This document shows positions 4,419 through 62,725 of a stretch of DNA of 64,000 bases, piece by piece; positions within the stretch are counted from its first letter, which is position 1; each line of letters starts with the position of its first letter. Source of the stretch: Antedon mediterranea (Eukaryota; Echinodermata; Crinoidea; Comatulida; Antedonidae). Location: assembly GCF_964355755.1 (NCBI RefSeq), contig NC_092678.1, positions 4,064,922 through 4,128,921 of the forward strand, in the 5' to 3' direction. The notes below the pieces were generated by a model. It was not told the DNA's origin. It was given only the letters and a program-made list of their open reading frames with translations, and did no database searches. The position numbers were made by a program, and so were the translations under genes.

Positions 4419-5889
4419 TTAATATCTAAACGACAAGTCTGTTTCAACCAACAACCAAGGATTTTCAAAATCATCTTCTGCTTCTAGACTTGCATAACCC
4501 TCGTTCTTAGCAGCATGTTTTTGAATAGCTCTGAATACCATCATGTAAACGAGTCCGTAAATTACCGTCATCCCAATGTATAAAATCGGGAACACCAAGC
4601 ATGTAATCCAATCAGACTTTGCATAAGTTCCTACCAGAACGAGCATTGCGATACCAATGTTTTTGAACACGGTTTCAAGTGCAATTGTTCGACAACGGTG
4701 TGGTTGTTGTTTGAAGATGTAACCAGTTGCGTATCCGATAGAAAAGCCAGCTATTGGTAGGATCAACACCATGAAATATACGCTCCAAGGACTGTGAATA
4801 ATATCAGTTTGCATCAGTATGTAGAAAAGAGCAAAACTTGAATAGCCAACCAATCCGACCGTTGTGCCAATCTGCAAATAAGGATATGAAACAAATTTTA
4901 CCCGTGTACTGTACACTCTATGGAACAGAAAATCTTGCCAACTCGACCATGGCCACACTCTCACGATGCTTGAGTAGCCTCATCTTGCATTATTTGTGTA
5001 TTAAGGCATATATTACTCCATAGTTCTAATAGCACACTCACTTTTTAAGAACCCTGGAATAGATATAGTAGGTGGGACTTCTTTACAACATATAAAAAAA
5101 TGTACACAACAAATTATTTTACCGTTACAATGTAAGCAGCAATCTTTGGCGCCCAATTCCGAATAACCATACCTAGGAGTACCTGACTAATCAATACCGC
5201 GCATATTATAGCAATCGTGGTGTAGGGTATAACTGCGGTTTCTGATGTCCAGCTACTGCCGTAGATAAACATCAATGCAGGTAACATTCCAAGAGAAATT
5301 ATCATGGACAATGCTGTAGAGCAAACACTGAAAAGAAAAGTAAAAAGAAACCACTGATGAAGTTACTATTTAGAACCAACATACTGGAATTTTGGATGCT
5401 CCAGCACTATCCATACCATTACTCAAACTCATCAATATAACAGTTTTTCTGGTACTGAGAAGAAAAAGAATAGCTATGTAATTTAAATACCACTTACCTC
5501 ATACAAATATCACCATCAACCAAATAAGTGAAAAGCGATGAAGGAGAAGAGCCAGGACTAGCAACAACCAAAATAACACCAATAGCATAAGAACTTTGAA
5601 CATTCATAAGATAATTGAATATAAATCCAACAAGAGGATATGTCACAAACTGAGAGACGGTGCTGAGAACTATTCCGGCCGGGGACTGCCATTGTTGCTT
5701 GAAGTCATTGAAAGTCATTGTACATCCCATGGCAAGATTGATGCTAGCTATCAAAATAAAGAGGATGATTACCGTCCCAATCTTTATCGCTTCTAAACTT
5801 GATAGCAGGTCTGGTGATATCATATCATTTACATCAGTAGTGGTTTTAATTGATGACATCGTTGTTAACAATCCTTTTGAACTCAACAT
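4419..5889 (-). CDS. SLC10-family (ASBT-like) bile acid/sodium symporter homologue
   Basis: Three exons, complement(4419..4871, 5123..5327, 5498..5889), give 349 aa. That is close to the length of vertebrate SLC10A2. Junctions are GT-AG and in phase: an AG left by exon 1 joins a T in exon 2 to make Ser131. The start is the ATG at 5887-5889; an in-frame stop lies 15 bases upstream. Family signatures are a TM1 region near 36-56, an SQFxxYPL segment at 79-86, a YLVDGD motif at 122-127 after the SPG turn, IxPxAGFSxGY near 240 and RCRTxALET at 258-266. Expected location is the plasma membrane, with about nine or ten TM segments. Oddities: sodium-site positions differ from ASBT (Asn of the GTASN turn is Ser118; Gln of ETGMQN is Lys269), so sodium-coupled bile acid transport cannot be assumed. 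The tail is short and acidic. Subfamily is uncertain. Confidence 0.9.
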
Positions 5890-6859
5890 TATAAACCTTA
5901 AAATTTACACAATCAAGAGATACTATTCCAAATGGCTAAATAGTGATCCAAATAACATTATTGACCTAGTAATTCCACATCAGTTTCACAGAATCGCTGT
6001 TAAAGGGTGTGATACATCTATACACCTGAACAATTGCTGTATCAATGTCACCATCCCACCAGCAGAAATATTATATCCTTTCTCACTTTTGACAACCCTC
6101 GTAAATATGGTAATTAATTTTTGTTAACAAGTCATGTGACAAAGCGTTTTATTTGGAGGGAAAACAATATTAATTGTAATAATACATCTTTACTAGGTAC
6201 TGTATGAGTTTAGTTAAAATTCATCACAATTAAATTAGGATTTTAACTGATATTGTTTAGTTTATGACTGGTAGTTTGTAGCGTACTACTGCCCACACAT
6301 TGACATCACTACAAAATAAACACTATCAATTGTTTATTAAAATCATAAAATGATAATTTAGTAAATACAAAGTAAATGCTAGAGTTTACAAAATAATTTA
6401 GTTTATAACTTAAAGTATTCCACTTCACCAATTCATATTCTTTGTTCAAATACACATTTAGTGGCTAATCAATGTTTCAGTTTTTATACTTAGTTTTAGG
6501 TATTGGAAATCAATGACAATGAAACTGATGAAGTTGACCCTTCTTATTTCATTTTGTTTAATCAATCATTGGTATAAATTACGATGCCTCTTTTTCTCTG
6601 AGGCTTATCTATGTTTTGGTCCTCCATTCTTTTCCTTTCACATTGCTGGCATGTCCAATAATTTAAAAATTGCTAATAGTAATAGTACTGTGAAATATTT
6701 ACATTACAGTATGTTGTCCTTTCAAATATTGTTTAATGCCTGGTTTGAGTACCATAGAGCACTGCTATAACCAACTAGAAAAAAAGACTTAGTGTAGTTG
6801 TGGAAAGCATAGCTGGAGAAACTGCCGCAAATGTTCACTATTTTGAATAATTTAAGTGC
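5890..6859. other. Intergenic, SLC10 5' side and KLHDC10 3' side
   Basis: This 970 bp gap separates two minus-strand genes arranged head-to-tail. It must hold the SLC10 5' UTR and promoter and the KLHDC10 3' UTR. TTTATT near 6332 could be a minus-strand AATAAA for KLHDC10. An open frame at 6513-6770 on the plus strand has no splice context or recognisable domain and I do not treat it as coding. Confidence 0.5.
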
Positions 6860-19314: not shown

Positions 19315-21207
19315 TCAGCGGTCGACAGTCGCCGTGTTTATAGATGGGGACTTATTTAATCTTAACATTCGTTTAAACGCAATTCTAAAGTTATTGTTAC
19401 ATAGTGGATATATAAACGGATTCATTGCGGAGTTTATATAGCCTAACCAAATGGTGGAATAATAAAAATGTTCATTAACACAGTTTTCACAGAATGGAAC
19501 GATCATAAAAACAACAAAATACGGTAACCAGCAAATAACAAAACATCCAACAATGGCTCCTAGTTGCTTCAAAGCTTTCTTTTCCTTGCTCAATGAAAAT
19601 CGTTTTATCTTCCCGAGAGTTTCACCAGCAATCCCGGTTTGTAGACTCATCCCTATTTTCCTGGATAGTGACGCAGTTCTGGAAAATCCCGAACCGGCGT
19701 CTCCGTTAGAGCGTGGCACTAAAGATGGCCTACCCTGAATGTGTTTTTGCCGTGGGAACGAAGCCGATTTGGATTTCATACATTGTAACATTACGCTATT
19801 ATGATTTTGAATACTAATCGCTTCCTCGTTCTCTTTGACGGTTTGCAACGCCATGTACGAAGACGCTTCGAACTGTTGGCTGCTGACAGTCCGACGTACC
19901 CGCCGTTTTTTGGGCGGGACTTTTGATTGCGTTTGTTGGCTCGTGTTTGTTTCTTCTTTCTTTGCATCCGTTGAAACGTACGTGTTATTGGTAAATTCCG
20001 GTGGTATATATTCCAAATTACTTGTACATCGTCGTAAGTGTAATTTCGGGGATGACAATCCATTTTGTAAAAATTGTTTTTCGTTTATGTTTTCATTGTC
20101 TGCTTCTGCACTGAGTTTTGACGTCATTTCTGATAAATCCATTTCAAAATTACTGTTTGAATCGACCTGATATCCATTCTCTTTTAAGTCATCATCATCT
20201 TCGATTTCTATTTCTGTCGATGTATGTCCCACGTGTTTCAATTTCAGTAATTCCTCTAATTGTTCACAGCCGTTGTGGTTTGGTCGGTTGATGGCGTTAT
20301 TTTTCTTAGGAGTGTCGTTACAAATTGTCCCTTCTTTACTTGTACTCAGTGACTCGTATTCATAATCGAATTCGTCTCCAAATGATCCGCCCTGTGCGCT
20401 TGTTAAATCCAATTGTTGCGTAACAATACGTGCTTCTTCATCAATGCTTTTCTTTTTAAATCCATATGTTTTTCTTCCAACTGCTAACTCACTTCGTCTC
20501 CTAATCTCCCAATATATTCGTATGTATATATAGATCATAATAAACAGTGGGATGTAGAAATTGAACGCCGCAGTGATTATCTTAAAAATGAGATTGTTAT
20601 AAAATTCAGTCTCGCATGTATCGCTAGCAATACTTCGCTGTCCATCCAGAAAAACTAAATGCCAAAATAAAATCGGTATAATCCACAAAGATGAAAAAAT
20701 CCAAACAAATGATATCATGACGGAAGCCCGTTTTACCGTTCTTTTTCGAATATATCGTAACGGTGACGTAATTGACCAATAGCGGTCTAAACTTAGTATA
20801 AATAAATTAAAGATAGACGCTGTGCTACAGACATAATCAACCGATAACCACGCTTGACATACGGGTATTCCTAGGATCCATTTATCGCTAACAAATAGAA
20901 ACATACTTAATGGCGTTACGATCATTCCTATCAACATGTCTGCCACTGCAAGACTCATTATAAAATAGTTACTGACTGTCTGTAAACGCTTTTCAGTTCT
21001 GATTGCGTGTATCACTAACGCGTTACCGATAAATGTTACAATACTGACGCATACCATAAACGTTGCGACCGGTATTACTATTGTTAAGGACATAGTAGTA
21101 GCGTCATTATCATTTGTAGTTGATGAGTTTGTACCGCTAGTTTCAATAGTTGCATCTCGTTGAACCGGATGTGAAAATTGCATTTGCGAAGAAAGTTGTT
21201 GATCCAT
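19315..21207 (-). CDS. Histamine H1-like G protein-coupled receptor
   Basis: A single coding exon of 630 aa for a class A aminergic receptor; the closest family I recognise is histamine H1. Start is the ATG at 21205-21207; the open frame extends 9 bases further to a TTG that abuts a splice acceptor (TTTTTTGTTAG), so a non-coding exon should precede it. Landmarks are N-glycosylation sequon Asn27, TM1 GN motif, Asp124 (3.32, amine anchor), DRY 141-143, a Cys117-Cys198 disulfide pair, the TM5 set Lys209/Thr212/Asn216, and CWLPYFVVF at 559-567 with Trp560, Tyr563, Phe564 and Phe567. NPFIY is at 596-600. The third loop is long (about 240-545), Ser/Thr-rich with basic clusters. All H1 histamine contacts listed are kept. 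Expected coupling is Gq, by family. A muscarinic receptor is less likely, because the TM5 and CETEFY segments match H1. Confidence 0.93.
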   Translation of the reverse strand: MDQQLSSQMQFSHPVQRDATIETSGTNSSTTNDNDATTMSLTIVIPVATFMVCVSIVTFIGNALVIHAIRTEKRLQTVSNYFIMSLAVADMLIGMIVTPLSMFLFVSDKWILGIPVCQAWLSVDYVCSTASIFNLFILSLDRYWSITSPLRYIRKRTVKRASVMISFVWIFSSLWIIPILFWHLVFLDGQRSIASDTCETEFYNNLIFKIITAAFNFYIPLFIMIYIYIRIYWEIRRRSELAVGRKTYGFKKKSIDEEARIVTQQLDLTSAQGGSFGDEFDYEYESLSTSKEGTICNDTPKKNNAINRPNHNGCEQLEELLKLKHVGHTSTEIEIEDDDDLKENGYQVDSNSNFEMDLSEMTSKLSAEADNENINEKQFLQNGLSSPKLHLRRCTSNLEYIPPEFTNNTYVSTDAKKEETNTSQQTQSKVPPKKRRVRRTVSSQQFEASSYMALQTVKENEEAISIQNHNSVMLQCMKSKSASFPRQKHIQGRPSLVPRSNGDAGSGFSRTASLSRKIGMSLQTGIAGETLGKIKRFSLSKEKKALKQLGAIVGCFVICWLPYFVVFMIVPFCENCVNEHFYYSTIWLGYINSAMNPFIYPLCNNNFRIAFKRMLRLNKSPSINTATVDR

Positions 21208-24200
21208 TATATCCAACTAACAAAAAATCGTTAGAGCATCGCACCTTTCAACATCTGAAATCTGGAGAAAAGGAAAACTACATTAGGAAACATCTACATA
21301 ATGTGAAACCAACAAGCTGTAAAAACATAAAAGTCAAAAATTAAATTAATAATTTATATTACAGTATTAATAATTTATGTTTAATTTACGATCTTTCTAA
21401 TTTTGTTAACGCAACTGAAATCAAATCTGATATTTTATGAAACATTTAAAGGCAATCATCCGATAGATCACCACCTGTACGCAATTGATGCTTCCTTGCT
21501 AAAAATATACAGTAAGCATCACGCACTAAGCGCAGTAAAACACATTTGAATAGGGCTATACGCCTAAAAAAATATTTGGAAACACAGAAGTTGATGCAAA
21601 CACGTATATGTTGCCTCGTGGCTGGTAGCTTCGCCAGCTTTGAGCGACATTGGTAGACGTCTTTTTTGACAAATTGGTAATATATTTTTTTAATGGCAGC
21701 CGTGGCTTAAAGCAATTAATAATCCTATCGAAGGCTTTGCTATTTTCTAATTCGTTTGTATTAGCAGCTAAAAAATGCTGATTTTTACCATACATAATTT
21801 GTATACTTCATCATTAGCAAGAAAAGTGATACTGCGCATCGTAACTGATTTCATTTTCTGCACGCAGCTGCAATGCGTATGCAAGTGATAGTTAATTTTG
21901 TTGATTTATACATTGATTAAAAACAATCCTTTCAAATAACGATTAAAATAACATGTATGTATGTTAGTAGTCATAAATTTGATAATCATCCCTCCAAGTA
22001 ACACCTTTTTGGCACAACCAAGGGTCCGAGTTTGTCTCATATCCATGTCACAAGGGTGTGGAGAGAGTAGTTCTTTGTTAAAAAATTTCTATTTATCATA
22101 CATTCCAATAATTATCGATCTATAGTTTCCCCTATGCTTCATAATTTTTGGGATTTTATTTGTGTTACACGAGCTTGTTGAAAATAAGCACTTTCTTATC
22201 AGTGGGGGATAGTTCAAATTACACAGTAAAATCTCTATTCTTTTGTACACAAATTTTGTAGAGAGGCATTTTAAAAAGCTATGAAAAATAAACGCTGTGG
22301 TAAAAAATGTTATCAGATGACTAAATATAGGTAATATAACTTGAATTTTACATTTCTGGTATTTTTATTCAACTTCAGATTTTTATTTTCATGATATAGC
22401 AAAAATTATCCACCATATATCCACCATCTTTTTTTCACCTTCTAGGGAGTAACTACCTAACTACTGAAAAACGTCTTCCTGGTTTTTATGACAGAATTTT
22501 GCAAAATTTTGTATTTGACCAGGAAAATTCATGTTTTTTCGTCATGATTTCTGTTACAAATATTTTATTTATGTACAATTAGCCAGATACTATACTTAAA
22601 ATTCATGCCTGTACCTGAGCTTTAACATAACAATTCGTAAAATAATTTCAATTCAAAATTTTGATTTATTAGACAGTAGGCTACATTAAGTATTGCATAA
22701 CCTTCAAAATAATTTGTATTAACTATAATACATGTTTAATATGTAAAACAAAATCCACGGTCATTTTAACGACAATGATGACTTGGCCTTTAGATAGTAA
22801 TTATTCATTTCAAGTGGAAAACGTCACGAACACATTTGTTAACGACCAAAAAATGTTCATCTATAATTAATATAATAAAAAATTATACCTTATTTTCAAA
22901 TCAAAATAGTTTTTAAATGTCTTGCAAATGTATAAACCGTCGAATAATACACTTATAGTACCTAACCTTTAGGCCTACGAGATAGAAACGGTTCCATTGT
23001 CAAGAGCTTGAACAAATATTCAGATACCTTTCGAATGAGAGGAGAGAATCGTAGAATATGTTCAAGATTCCTTGAGTTCTGTCCTCCCACTCCACAGTGT
23101 ACATTATTTTTCGGTTCAGACGATGTTACCCGAGGCTTCGCGAAAACGTGCACCCATCTTGAAAATGGAAGAGTGTCAATATCTCTTCTATCAAATGCTA
23201 ATCGACTTCTGAAACGTGCTCTGATTTTCTAAGAAAATGAGATGAAAGATCACGTTCGACTAACATAAATGAACCCAGTAATAGTACCAAATCATAATTG
23301 ACCAGGTATATGTGATGTGAATACTTCGTATACCATTTCAGGACGTATTCATTTGTGCATACATATATATATATATAATATATTCAAGATTGTTTCTAAT
23401 CAAACACAACATTTTTACTATCATTGAATACTTTTATGTAAATTAGGTTAGATTTATCATATCCCGTGTACATGTAATGCATGTTATTTCAGCAGTCTTT
23501 TTAAAATTTGCTCGACACCATAGAAATGATTTCGGAACAAATGCGAACGCAAGTGTCGTTAAGCGCAACGTGGCTCAAATCTCGGCATGGTGTAAACACA
23601 GCTTTACCTATATACTTTTTGTACATGGTGTAAAGTTGGGGATTATTTACTTTAATATATACGCCCCTTGGAGACACGATCTGTGTAATGTGCCTCTATC
23701 GTAACATTGTAGAAACCGTAGGTCTAGAAGATGTTTGACCTGTTGAACTAGTGATATTAATTTCTCGCCAATGTAATTGATATCAGGTATTTTTATACAC
23801 AGTGTTCATATTTCAGATCGAGTCCATGTTTCACCGGTGGACCAAATCCATATGTTGATATTCTTAGACCTCAGCAGTATAGGAATTTAATTAAACTGAA
23901 CCATATCCATATATCCAAGACAAACCACACGTTAATTTACCCGTAACAACGCTGTATAGGAAATTAAGGAAGATATAGTTTTGACCCACGCATGTTGTCG
24001 AGCATCCATGGAGAAAAAACTGTGCATGTTGAAAAAAATACTTAAATAATTATACTTCTTATTTTGTCGTTTCATATTTTCTCCTTGCTGTGATTTATAT
24101 TTAGAATAGACTAATCTTTGCGTATTATGGTATTACAGTGTTAATTACGAAACGAAAACGCCATTTGTAATATAATAAGCGTAATTTAAGTGACGTGCAC

Positions 24201-54025: not shown

Positions 54026-54245
54026 CGCGACCAGCCGAGCGTAAAAAACAAAAATAACATACCGTTTTCATGGGATTTCAGGACACCAGGTTAATTAAAA
54101 AATCGTTTATGTTTTAAAAAGATTAATAAATAATAACAACATTTTACAATACTTTTTTTCTCATACGATTTTTAAATTGACATGGTGTCCTGAAATCCCC
54201 TGAAATTGCTATGTTATTTTTGTTTTTTACGGTAGGCCGGTCACG
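54026..54245. mobile_element. Fold-back element with about 80 bp arms
   Basis: The left arm (54026-54105) and right arm (54165-54245) are reverse complements over most of their length, sharing CGTAAAAAACAAAAATAACAT and GGGATTTCAGGACACCA. The loop of about 60 bp is AT-rich. There is no coding capacity. Confidence 0.85.
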
Positions 54246-54967: not shown

Positions 54968-56718
54968 ACCATTCTAATGTTGATGGGAGTGCAGGTAAAT
55001 AAAACAGCCATTTTGCTGCTGATAGCTGCAGTCCTAACACTTCTGTTTATCTACTACCCTTCCGTCTCATCCGACAAACAATCTGAGCTCAGCCGAGTGA
55101 ATGCAGTGGAAAATTTCGCTAAAGAAGCTTTAGAGGATAAATTACGTGTGTTTGGAGGCGCAAATGAGGAAGGGAAACTTATGAATATGACGTGGGAAGA
55201 TATAAAAGATAGTGCATTGCACAACACCAAGCTGACCTTAACCGAAGAGAAGTTTGAATTAAAGGGTTTCGGCCAGGTTTACCGTCGGGAGTGTGTAGAC
55301 AGTGAACGGGAGTCATCGGGAACGATATTACTTCTACATGGAGCGAAGTTTAATTCTGAGACATGGAAAAACCTTGGTACTCTGCATGTAATGGCAAGCT
55401 ATGGTTACAGGGTTGTGGCTATAGATCTACCAGGTAGTATAAACTGTTATATACACTAATTTATAAGCCATTTTATATGAAATCAGGGCCGTGGCCAGCA
55501 TGAGGCAGACAAGGCGGCGCTCGCCTTGTCTTAAATTTTCAATTTTCACTACCCATCCCATTCCCCAGCACAGATCGTCATATTTTAAATAATTATATTT
55601 CAAGCATCTTTGCCTCGTCTGTTTTTAACCTCTCACTACGGCCTTGGAAATATGTTTTACTTTAATGAAAAATAAAATTAGTTATTTCATTTTCGGTGTA
55701 AAACTACAGGATTCCAAGTAAGGACTGTTCTGTAGTTTTGTAGTAGTATTTCATTGACCTATTTGTACTTCAAGTGATCGATTATGGCAAACTCGGTATT
55801 ATTATTGTATTCATAACATTTTAGCAAGCAGCACAAAAGAAGATTGGTCTTCATTCAAACAATATTAATTTAATTTCTGGTAAAACATATTTCCGTAGGA
55901 GGAAGAGGGGAGACACCAGCTGGTAATGTACCTGACAAAGCTGATTTTTTAATAAATGTGATGTCAACTTTGAAGATTGAGAATCCAATATTAATAAGTC
56001 CGTCGATGAGCGGAGGATGGTCACTGCCTCTAATCATGAAACGCAGTGACTTGTTAAAGGGATATCTACCGGTCGCACCAGTCGACACAGATAAATATAA
56101 AGATGATGAATATAAAACTAATCAAGTAAGTACAGTAATACAGTAGAACAACCATTTCAGGGTCTTTCCCACTTGTTCCGGCGCCGGCAAATCGAACGTC
56201 AATGTTTCGTTTTTACGAAGCTCCATGCGAATATTCGAGTATGTGCGTAGCTGCGTGAAAACGAAACATGACGTTCAATTTGCCGTGCCGGTGTGAAAGA
56301 CCCTTAAGAGGACACATTCGTGACCCCACAAGGTTTCTTCTTAATCGAGGTATCTCCTAAATAAGGGTTTGGCGTAGTGTTAAAATAATAATAATAATAA
56401 CAGGATTTTTATAGCGTGCATACCACTCAAGAGCGCTCAAGGCGCATTAAAAAAAAAAATACAAAATTTAAACATGAAAGTGTCCTAAGAAGATGTTTTA
56501 CTTGAGTGTGTTTATTTGTATTTATTTAGATCCAGGCTCTTGTAGTATATGGCGATAAAGATACAGCTCTAGGAAGTCACTCAGCATTGAAGCTCACACT
56601 ACTACCAAACGGTCAAGTACATAAACTCAAAGATGCTAACCACGCAGCCTATCTTGACCAACCACTTGAGTTCCATCGTCTCCTTCATAATTTTGCTGAT
56701 AAGTTATTTGGAAATTAA
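54968..56718 (+). CDS. ABHD14A-like alpha/beta hydrolase
   Basis: CDS is join(54977..55433, 55899..56125, 56530..56718), 290 aa (human ABHD14A is about 270). The exon starts at 54968 after acceptor TTTATTTAACACAG; the first in-frame ATG is at 54977, and an in-frame stop lies at 54917. A membrane anchor (about residues 11-31, AILLLIAAVLTLLFIYYPSV) precedes the hydrolase, as in ABHD14A but not ABHD14B. Signatures are LLLHGAKFNSETW (oxyanion loop), VVAIDLPG, the nucleophile elbow SPSMSGG with probable catalytic Ser188, VVYGDKD with Asp239, and DANHAAYLDQP with His266, so the triad is complete. Junction phases agree. Likely a single-pass, membrane-bound hydrolase; the family's substrate is not settled (ABHD14B acts as a lysine deacetylase, known for the paralogue only). 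Intron 2 holds a MITE. It converges with the next gene. Confidence 0.93.
56158..56306. mobile_element. MITE-like element, family C, in an intron
   Basis: Long terminal inverted repeats of about 50 bases: AGGGTCTTTCCCAC, CGGCAAATCGAACGTCA and TGTTTCGTTTT on the left are mirrored by AAAACGAAACA, TGACGTTCAATTTGCCG and GTGTGAAAGACCCT on the right. Total about 146 bp, with no coding capacity. It lies in intron 2 of the ABHD14A-like gene. Confidence 0.85.
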
Positions 56719-57878: not shown

Positions 57879-60800
57879 TTAAACTTGACTAACGATAGAC
57901 TGTCCAATATGTAAACGCATTTCACCATCGGTTACCACATCCGGTAATCCGCTAGATTCGCGAGTGATCGTTCCATAAACAGCGTCCGGATGGTGCCCAG
58001 GCCTACAAGCGTATACACTTCTTTCGGTCATGGCAATATCCGTTGCCACTTGACAGTACATTGGTGCGATAGCATCGTACGATGGGGGTGGAGTCGGAGG
58101 CCTAGTGGCTCTCCTCCAAGCAGCAATCATTGCGAACAGACTACTACTTGACCGCATGAGTGAAGAGGCCTGACTCTGCATTTGTGTACAATCGTTTCTG
58201 GTGTTCACTCGGTTTGTTGAATTATGTGGACAATGTTCTATAACAAAAAAAGAGTTACTAATTTTATAGACCATCATACGGTAGCACAAAGGGATGGGAA
58301 TCACACTTACCACCGTCAAAAGCGGTGGTGCCAACAATGAATTGCCTAACAGTTCACCATCCTGGTGAATCCTATACTAACCTCTTGTACTCCTTGAGGC
58401 ACGGGGGCTTCCTCTTTTAGCAATGCAGCAACAAAACATGATTACAAAAAGAATTCCAAATGCTGTCAACAGGATGATCCACAACTTACTGATGGCTGCA
58501 AAAAATGTTTTTATTTATTTAACAAGAATTGTGTATTCTTTTCATTTTTTCTATTTACACGACAGTGATTTAACCAATGACAAGCGACAGACCGAATAAT
58601 CCATTACTTCTGATTGGTCAAATCACTTACGTTGCGCTTGCGTTATGTATCTAGTAGTACGAACCAAGCATAAAAGATCTCTAAAGGCCAATTTACACAG
58701 ACGAGCGGTAACGGAAATAAAAAAAAAGAATCTATGTTATGTTATTGTTATGTTATTTACACAAAGGGTGGAGAGGACGGGTGATTTCCGTTCATGACAG
58801 ATACAGATTCTATGTGGGACAAGCTACGCTGTAAATTGGCTTTAATAAGAAAGTAATAATTTTGAAAATTAAATTGGGTTTCCTATCTTATATTTTGGCA
58901 CAGTTAAAGTAATTAGTCTATTTATTTTTACCAGCATCTTGTGTGTGTGTATTACCGCTACATGCTAGTGATATTTTGTTAGTGGCTTGTCTAAAATAAG
59001 TTAAAACTGGGTACTGTACTTCTGGGTGTTCCATGAACTTCAGGGTATGTCGGCCAGTATTCATCTGGTAATTCGGGTGGTGCTTCATAATCTACGTATG
59101 AATTGCCTTCAAATTCACAATTTGGTCCATAGAAGTTACCCTCACACATGCAGATGACCCCCATACTCAAGGAAACGTACACGTGACATCGATTCTTTCT
59201 TTCGCAAGGACAGGGATCAAGTGTTCCTGAAAATATATTATAAATATAGTTTTGTGATTTTTTTAGCTGCTGCTTTTTCGTATTTTTTCGACAGTTTTTC
59301 CTACTTTCGTATTTCATTGATTGATGCTTTTGTGAATAGATTGAGTTTTATTTGTTGGTGTTGGTTGATCGGTTGATTGCCTCAGGGTGGTCAAATCGAA
59401 CATACGTGTTCAGGCTACCAATAGGCTAACTGTGTTTTTATGAAGTTAAATTCTCAACATTTATAGGTTGTCAAATTGTTTTGTTGTGTCATAGGTTTTG
59501 CTTGTGTTTCAATTGAGTATTTTATATATCCTTAATGTTCTTGTGTAATCGACAACTCACCTACTTCCTGTGTGTCGCACAGTTTGCCTGTGTACCCCAT
59601 GTGACAGACGCACATGTAACTGCCTTCAGGGTCTGCTATCTTACAAACTCCCTGATTACAGTTCACCTCTCCACAAGCATCTTAAAAAAAGTTTGTATGC
59701 AGAATCATTTTAAGCCGAATGTTCTCTTACTGACGATAGGTTATCATCGGGTCAAATGCACTTAATATTTTTTTCGACACACAGTATACAGTACCAACTT
59801 TTTCATAGTCTCGCTATTCTGCAGAAAATGTTGTGCAAGTGCAAATAAACTGATTCTGGGATGTTATTCAATTCGTTGTTTGTCTGACGACACTAGATTG
59901 TACCTCTAGTAATTAACACATGAGTGTAAATATATTATTTGATTCATAATTTAAACTTACAGAAATGACACTGGCTACCGTAGAAATTGTTAAAACAATG
60001 ACATTCGTTCGTCGATTGGTCGCAAACTCCACCATTACGACAATTTAAACAAGGCTCTAGAGGAAAAGTCGAAATAGTAATCTAATTAGTATTATTGACA
60101 GATACGTCATCGTTTTCTCTTTATGCCTATTGGTATAGTCTTGAAATAATTCATTTTGGATTCTAATAATAGAAGAGAATTTGTCTTTCCATAATCAATT
60201 GTGGCTTACCGTCACAGTATATTTCATCTGATCTATCTGGACAATGGTAGTAAGAATCACAAAGTAGCTTGTTTGGTATGCAGTGAAAGCTGTCTTGACA
60301 GGGATAGTAATCTAGCGGGCAAAAACCACCAACTGAAACACAAACATTACCTGTCATGTTTATTATTATCATAGTCATATAATCGTCCTCATCAACAGCA
60401 TTGTCATCAATTGTGTCACTATCATCAACAGCATCATCATCATTATAACTTCAGTTATTATCGTCTCTATCAATAATCAATATTACTATCAGTTATCGAT
60501 TATCATCAATCGTCATGCATCAATTATTGTATATCGCAATGTTCCAAACATAACAAACATAAACCTCCTCCCTTCTCCCACCTTCTCATCCCTGTCCTTT
60601 CTACACCCTCCCATTCATCCCTGCCCTTTCTTACCCTCCCATTCATCCTTGCCCTTTCATACCCTCCCATTCATCCTTGCCCTTTTATACCCTCGCACTC
60701 ATCCTTGCCCTTTCCTACCCTCCCACTCATCCCAGCCATTTCCTCCACTTCCAATCATCCTTGCCCTTTCCTCCACTCCCACTCATCCCAGCCATTTCCT

Positions 60801-62725
60801 CCACTTCCAATCATCCTTGCCCTTTCCTCCACTCCCACTCATCCCAGCCATTTCCTCCACTTCCAATAATCCTTGCCCTTTCCTCCACTCCCACTCATCC
60901 CAGCCATTTCCTCCACTTCCAATCATCCTTGCCCTTTCCTACCCTCCCACTCATCCCAGCCATTTCCTCCACTTCCAATCATCCTTGCCCTTTCCTCCAC
61001 TCCCACTCATCCCAGCCATTTCCTCCACTTCCAATCATCCTTGCCCTTTCCTACCCTCCCACTCATCCCAGCCATTTCCTCCACTCCCACTCATCCTTGC
61101 CCTTTCCTACCCTCCCACTCATCCCAGCCCTTTCCTCCACTCCCAATCATCCTACCTGATTTTGATAGAGTACAAAATGCATAGACAAACAACAAATCAA
61201 CTGCTTGGTATAAGCTTAACTCTATCTTAATTTTCACTAATAAAGTAGTTTGCAGCGAGGTGTAGTCAAACGCATTGAGGTTTCCTTGGCGATGCGACGC
61301 TAAAGATGCACTCGCGGACCCGTCATACAAAATTATTTCCACTTTTATATCTGTAATTTAAAAAAAAGTTAAATTTCAGTGGCATATCCAAGGATCTAGG
61401 AGTTTCCTGGACAAAATGTCTCTTTATAATACTTTTTTTTTATCAGACGTTTAGGCTAAACTTTAATAATGGATTGAAAGTTACCGGTAGAATGTGGAAT
61501 AATTCACCCCAATATTAACATTATAATTTTGTATGGTTTTTGTAAACGCATCACTAGTATTCAGGTATCAGTATCACCGTAAATGCCAGAATGATGCATT
61601 AACATCGTTCAATATTTTACAACAATTATCCTTGGTTTAAATAAACAGCCTAAAGCCCCTCAGCCACCTAATGACAGATATCTGAATCTTGTGAACTGCA
61701 ACAAACTAGGCCTACTTATTGGAATTTGTCGACGACGATTTATTCGCCATCGAACACCATTAAAATTATAAGTACACACCTGAGATTGAAATATTCGTTG
61801 TTGCATTAAAATTGAAAAATACTAAATTAGAAGATTGAATGAGTAGCATGACGTCATAGACGCCCGGCCTGTTGAGTGACGTCGACGAGTGACCATCTCC
61901 ATTTGACAGGATATACTCGGACATTACTAGAACAGACAATAACATTTTTGTTAACATTCTTGATATTTCTAAAAACTGATACTGATAGTGTGCTGATTTG
62001 ATGGATACTTGACTTGAATGTTCTACCATGCTACAAACCTTTTGGCTTTTCCAGCCACGAACTATCTTTCGTAAACACATACGTAGCCTGGAACCCTGGT
62101 CGAGTTGTTGATGTTGTGTTAGCCCTTACAACATATCTGATTGTCAGCTTTTTTTCGGTTACACTAAGCGGCGGTGGACGGGATTTAGAGGCAGCACAGT
62201 ATGTTTCAACAATTTCTTCATTAACAGATATCTGTAACGATAAAATCATGATTAATCTTTTGAGTTTTAGAGGTCACCCCTCCGCCGTACTCTTCAAAAC
62301 AAAAGTTTTCGGGAGTTTAGGAGACGTAGTAGCCTCTAACATCGATCTCCAACGTTCTTCTGATTCCTATTTCTTGCCACTATTCATAGTAAAAATTATG
62401 TTTGTAAACGTTGACACAACCTGGGGATGGGGAGGGGGAGAGTTATAGAATCAAAGAATGAATGCCTATACTGCAGTAATTATCGACTTTACCTCTATAT
62501 AGTCGCCATCGCCATGGAGGCAGTTTGTCATCAGTGATTCTTGCACGGATGATCCATATAAAAAGAAATCCGTGAATAGAATCCGAACTGAATGCTTTTT
62601 AGGATTAAAGATATATTCACACACATAGTTGCCAGGTGGTCTTGGCAACGGAAAGCTTGGTGATTTGATATGATGTGTGAACGCACTGGACTGCGTGCTA
62701 GGCCTTGCTGTAAATTGCTCACACT
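57879..62725 (-). CDS. Single-pass receptor with CUB, LDLa and EGF domains and PPxY tail (5' incomplete)
   Basis: Ten exons: complement(57879..58237, 58382..58495, 59020..59226, 59561..59680, 59961..60056, 60210..60332, 61156..61350, 61780..61926, 62039..62231, 62493..62725). Every junction is GT-AG and in phase, giving 594 C-terminal residues plus a split codon. In order: a CUB domain over the first two exons (four Cys: ECEQ, NYVCEY, TNCLHG, ETYCA; ends GFQATYVF); a Cys-poor, CUB-like beta region (SDIKVEIILYDG); an LDLa module (FCPLDYYPC to CPDRSDEIYC, calcium acidic residues kept); three EGF-like modules; TM helix LWIILLTAFGILFVIMFCCC; and a cytoplasmic tail of about 130 aa with PPPSYD (PPxY, WW-domain ligand) and C-terminal SQV (class I PDZ ligand). 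The signal-peptide exon was not found; it may lie beyond 62726 or outside the window. I do not recognise a named orthologue; the tail recalls LRP10/12 or LDLRAD4 only in general style. Confidence 0.85.
58562..58671. mobile_element. Copy of MITE family A in an intron
   Basis: Contains CCAATGACAAGCGACAG, CACTTACGTTGCGCTTGCGTTA and right end ACGAACCAAGC. It sits in the intron between the TM exon and the last EGF exon of the receptor gene, directly next to a family B element. Confidence 0.65.
58682..58845. mobile_element. MITE-like element, family B
   Basis: Ends TAAAGGCCAATTTACA and TGTAAATTGGCTTTAA are inverted repeats bounding about 164 bp. Just inside the left end is ACGAGCGGTAACGGAAAT, which recurs in the copy at 53336. 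No coding capacity. Confidence 0.85.
60560..61150. repeat. Pyrimidine-rich minisatellite, 28/56 bp unit
   Basis: About 590 bp of CCACTCATCCCAGCCATTTC, CTCCACTTCCAATCATCCTT, GCCCTTTCCT in tandem. The basic unit is 28 bp, with alternating variants that give a 56 bp higher-order unit; the left end is less regular. It fills the intron side of the splice donor at 61156 of the receptor gene. All plus-strand frames are open through it, giving spurious Pro/Ser/His-rich ORFs of up to 193 codons. Confidence 0.96.

Follow-up and report, generated by a model that had tools for sequence, protein, structure and literature searches.

The minus-strand gene at 62725-57879 encodes a variant of the familiar CUB/LDLa type of membrane protein, and its exact mixture of modules fits no family that we tested. 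It lies in a window (the whole stretch of DNA analysed, 64,000 nucleotides) that corresponds to C9:4064922-4128921 of an evidently animal genome of 354 Mb in 18 contigs, and a genome search found the gene to be single copy. Three candidate paralogues were rejected because their matches were confined to LDLa or EGF modules: one is perlecan-like (C3), one is of the von Willebrand/mucin kind (C1) and the third is a large EGF gene (C6).

Gene model

The gene comprises 10 exons, including one candidate (61350-61156), with AG/GT splice sites and matching phases at all junctions; the introns are in phase 1, with the sole exception of a phase 0 intron within CUB1. When the candidate exon C2 and a putative signal-peptide exon are included, the joined model predicts a type I membrane protein of 619 residues. 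The extent given in the preliminary description is confirmed, with the start of exon A at 62725 and the last base of the stop codon at 57879; the features that it named are present, although exon C2 had been overlooked.

Signal-peptide exon, proposed, 64735-64663 (extended coordinates), minus strand: MTSVIVGLLSFSALYICAAASLGF; ends in phase 1
Exon A, 62493..62725, minus strand: first half of CUB1, with cysteines 1-3; enters in phase 1 and leaves in phase 0
Exon B, 62039..62231, minus strand: second half of CUB1, with cysteine 4 and PGFQATYVF
Exon C, 61780..61926, minus strand: first half of a CUB-sized region without the CUB cysteines; symmetric, phase 1-1
Exon C2, candidate, 61156..61350, minus strand: would complete the CUB-sized region (KVEIILYDGS...LLFVYAF); symmetric, phase 1-1
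Exon D, 60210..60332, minus strand: LDLa with six cysteines and DRSDE; Pfam Ldl_recept_a
Exon E, 59961..60056, minus strand: EGF 1, six cysteines; Pfam EGF_2
Exon F, 59561..59680, minus strand: EGF 2, six cysteines; Pfam EGF, 22.8 bits
Exon G, 59020..59226, minus strand: EGF 3 and an acidic, Tyr/Pro-rich juxtamembrane stalk, SYVDYEAPPELPDEYWPTYPEVHG
Exon H, 58382..58495, minus strand: transmembrane helix, then CCCIAKRGSPRASRSTR
Exon I, 57879..58237, minus strand: cytoplasmic tail with PPPSYDAI, YCQV, YGTI, C-terminal SQV and the stop codon

The first base of the proposed signal-peptide exon lies 735 bases outside the window, and this exon is the only convincing candidate upstream of exon A. 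Because candidates of this kind arise by chance at a rate of approximately 0.13 per 3.2 kb of strand, we grade its assignment to the receptor gene as likely but not proven. A dihydrolipoamide dehydrogenase-like gene, recognised by eye, starts on the opposite strand at approximately 65.9 kb and thus leaves little space for further upstream modules.

It is much more likely, judging from the exon structure, that the CUB exons and the EGF/TM exons form a single gene than that they belong to two, an outcome for which the preliminary description had allowed. Domain composition alone would permit a secreted CUB protein (exons A and B) beside a separate LDLa/EGF membrane protein. However, the reading phases are continuous across the exons, no stop or terminal exon was recognised past exon B, the sole signal-peptide candidate sits upstream of exon A, and the stretch between exons B and D yielded no second phase 1 exon resembling a signal peptide. 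A split into two genes is accordingly hardly credible.

Ectodomain modules

The CUB domain, the LDLa module and the three EGFs of the preliminary description were all borne out. Pfam domains were accepted when the protein was scanned in pieces; in a scan of the whole protein, LDLa and EGF fell slightly under the cut-off and CUB was missed. Scanned in pieces, exons A and B together scored 28.8 bits as CUB (cut-off 21.4), and the LDLa module, EGF_2 and EGF scored 32.4, 26.1 and 22.8 bits against cut-offs of 24.1, 22.1 and 21.5, respectively. Six cysteines are present in the LDLa module and in each EGF. CUB1 keeps all four CUB cysteines and outscored 1000 of 1000 shuffles on two home-made CUB HMMs (23.2 bits versus 6.7 for the top shuffle, n=1000). 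In our reading of the sequence, the LDLa module has Leu and His where LDLR modules have Trp and Asp; comparison with PDB sequences revealed that enteropeptidase also has His at the second of these positions. An NCBIfam search of the receptor returned no matches. With at least one CUB, one LDLa and one transmembrane segment in a type I protein, the product has the features of the broad CUB/LDLa transmembrane class.

The second CUB-sized region

The region encoded by exons C and C2 had been described as CUB-like, and this reading did not find support. Exon C2 is an open frame in the C-D intron with good splice sites (it reads KVEIILYDGSASASLASH...LLFVYAF), and together the two exons encode 114 residues, the length of a CUB, with none of the four CUB cysteines. 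Neither Pfam, nor the two home-made CUB HMMs (1000 shuffles each), nor hhalign supported CUB status, and the score against the CUB profile was no better than that of shuffles (p 0.44). A CUB identity for this region would be based on its length, its position and a pattern seen by eye, and is unproven.

Somewhat unlikely is the alternative that exons C and C2 stay outside the mRNA and that the protein is CUB-LDLa-EGF3-TM. Both exons are symmetric (phase 1-1), so that skipping them would leave the frame intact; in addition to the missing CUB score, exon C2 has no codon support, its codon evidence being uninformative. On the other hand, the splice sites of both exons are good, the joint length is that of a CUB with YDG and FVYAF in CUB-like places, and in one of two tests the codon usage of exon C passed the 95% level of length-matched noncoding controls. 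These codon tests are low in power because true exons score near zero. A single-sequence AlphaFold prediction of exon C2 was helical (pLDDT 71); we draw no conclusion from such half-domain predictions because the second half of CUB1, which served as positive control, was also predicted poorly (pLDDT 50).

Much of the C2-D intron is occupied by a minisatellite (60585-61153) of approximately 20 copies, with a 28-base unit and a 56-base higher-order unit, which begins 3 bases from the C2 donor.

Transmembrane segment and cytoplasmic tail

The receptor has one transmembrane segment, with a mean hydropathy of 2.98 over 19 residues, followed by basic residues that form a positive-inside flank. The tail of 133 residues contains PPSY once, within PPSYDAI, and three YxxPhi motifs (YDAI, YCQV and YGTI), and ends in SQV; no NPxY was found in it. 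The single transmembrane segment, the PPxY (in PPPSYD) and the class I PDZ terminus reported earlier are thus present. When the tail was shuffled, 2.6% of the shuffles contained PPxY, 4.4% ended in a class I PDZ ligand and 2.2% had at least three YxxPhi, so single motifs are not very rare (2-4%), whereas PPxY together with a class I PDZ terminus was seen in 0.12%. The presence of the motifs is observed, and from their short sequences we infer that they may work as such, which would give the tail the ubiquitin-ligase and scaffold roles that had been suggested for it. PPSYDAI fits the pattern PPxYxxPhi, the extended form of the PY motif that occurs in Nedd4 substrates.

Relationship to known families

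CUB/LDLa transmembrane proteins form an established class (PMC4732287, PMC9083331), which includes NETO, SOL-2 and LEV-10, with roles in receptor trafficking or clustering (PMC9083331), and CULD, which acts in the trafficking of rhodopsin and TRPL (PMC4732287). Among these, the layout of the receptor gene is closest to NETO. NETO1 has two CUBs, an LDLa, a transmembrane segment and a class I PDZ ligand, the C-terminal TRV (PMC2652390), and a CUB, a CUB-sized module, an LDLa and a transmembrane segment are common to the receptor and to NETO1/NETO2, Drosophila Neto and C. elegans SOL-2. Of the order CUB1-CUB2-LDLa-TM, the receptor has CUB1, LDLa and TM, and its second module is without a significant CUB score and without the CUB cysteines. 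It differs from the NETO1 layout in its three EGFs, its PPxY and a putatively degenerate second CUB. The preliminary description could match the combination to no named family. This holds for the exact domain set, and PDB sequences gave no close counterpart among named vertebrate genes, nor did the literature searched contain the same domain order; the claim was nevertheless overstated because the similar layout of NETO1 and the CUB/LDLa class were already published.

That the receptor gene is itself a NETO-type gene is very improbable, despite the matching module order and a class I PDZ end like that of NETO1. A search with the ectodomain of rat Neto2 (its sequence verified with PDB 7f56) located a separate NETO gene on contig C8 at approximately 14135.0-14137.8 kb, with a CUB1 (41% identity to rat Neto2, E 6e-21), a NETO-like CUB2, an LDLa and a transmembrane segment and without EGFs; the receptor gene is therefore not this animal's NETO. 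Moreover, the receptor gene is absent from the 45 genome places listed for this query at E<=0.001, its CUB intron positions differ, and three EGF exons (60056-59020) stand between its LDLa and TM. The tail of the C8 NETO carries PPGYETL, a PPxYxxPhi motif like PPSYDAI; this resemblance may reflect a common trait of receptors of this kind or may be due to chance.

Other families share parts of the architecture. CULD, like the receptor, has one recognisable CUB, one LDLa and one transmembrane segment, and by description has no EGFs (PMC4732287), in contrast to the three found here. The EGF array and single-pass topology recall large EGF membrane proteins such as Uninflatable of Drosophila, but Uninflatable, with 18 EGFs (PMC12867482), is far larger. 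Proteins of the WBP1/WBP1L/VOPP1 type carry cysteines after their transmembrane segment and PPxY in the tail, as does the receptor, but lack CUB, LDLa and EGF. The receptor TM and tail weakly resemble WBP-1; membership was rejected, since PF11669 scored 23.6 bits against a gathering cut-off of 28.1 and WBP-1 candidates were located elsewhere in the genome. LRP3, LRP10 and LRP12 combine CUB and LDLa modules with a transmembrane segment and an endocytic tail, like the receptor; they have two CUBs, several LDLa modules and no EGFs. An LRP10/LRP12-type receptor was ruled out, as the receptor has one LDLa and three EGFs.

Possible function

We tentatively propose, by analogy, that the protein is a CUB/LDLa-class surface (co)receptor that sets the trafficking or turnover of a partner through signals in its tail. 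The CUB and LDLa part would bind this partner, which may itself sit in a membrane, be secreted or belong to the matrix; the three EGFs would space the binding site off the membrane. In the tail, PPSYDAI may recruit a Nedd4-type WW-HECT ligase for ubiquitination, YDAI, YCQV and YGTI may recruit AP-2 for endocytosis, and SQV may bind a PDZ scaffold for retention at a membrane domain, such that the tail would carry signals for retention, internalisation and ubiquitination of the receptor-partner complex. If these signals fix the fate of the complex, a role in partner trafficking or turnover would be the most likely one. CULD (for rhodopsin and TRPL) and NETO (for glutamate receptors) are the trafficking analogues of this proposal.

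The same anatomy also suits a ligand-uptake or adhesion receptor. As an endocytic scavenger of the LDLR/cubilin kind, the protein would capture soluble proteins with its ectodomain and drive clathrin uptake with its tail; LDLa and CUB are ligand-binding modules, the LDLa was recognised by Pfam and has DRSDE, and three YxxPhi sites are available. This is rather unlikely, as there is a single LDLa with Leu/His in place of the LDLR Trp/Asp, and the tail is without NPxY. Less probable still is an adhesion or signalling protein without a trafficking role, whose EGF/CUB ectodomain would bind cells or matrix and whose PDZ end would anchor it at junctions. EGF repeats and a PDZ end suit such a protein, and the EGF array weakly matches Notch, Delta and teneurin models, as would any EGFs; however, there are three EGFs only, a DSL or other adhesive module is absent, and the tail is rich in YxxPhi and contains PPxY. 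We can also speculate that the trafficking (co)receptor proposed above represents a lineage-restricted family (CUB, degenerate CUB, LDLa, EGF3, PPxY and PDZ tail) that arose through phase 1 exon shuffling and in which a single tail links PDZ-based retention with Nedd4-driven removal of a partner, an extension that we consider improbable.

If the tail motifs are conserved, the receptor would be another case, beyond NETO and CULD, of a CUB/LDLa protein that controls how much of other receptors is at the surface; with scaffold and ligase signals within a single short tail, the case would be a tractable one. Without such conservation, the receptor would be one among many shuffled CUB/LDLa/EGF receptors of invertebrate genomes. 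At least 151 CUB matches were listed in this genome. At C6:24192878-24236352, at least eight tandem CUB exons with identical scores form part of a large CUB expansion.

Neighbouring features

Several other features of the window were recognised by eye.

54998-56718, plus strand: gene for a small alpha/beta hydrolase, in convergent orientation to the receptor gene (by eye)
54038-54235: MITE-like fold-back (inverted repeat) element, GTAAAAAACAAAAATAACAT... mirrored by ATGTTATTTTTGTTTTTTAC (by eye)
19315-21216, minus strand: unbroken 633-residue frame of a rhodopsin-class amine GPCR whose third intracellular loop is very long; it resembles histamine H1/muscarinic receptors (by eye)
4419-5904, minus strand: multi-pass transporter exons that resemble SLC10, a bile acid cotransporter (by eye)
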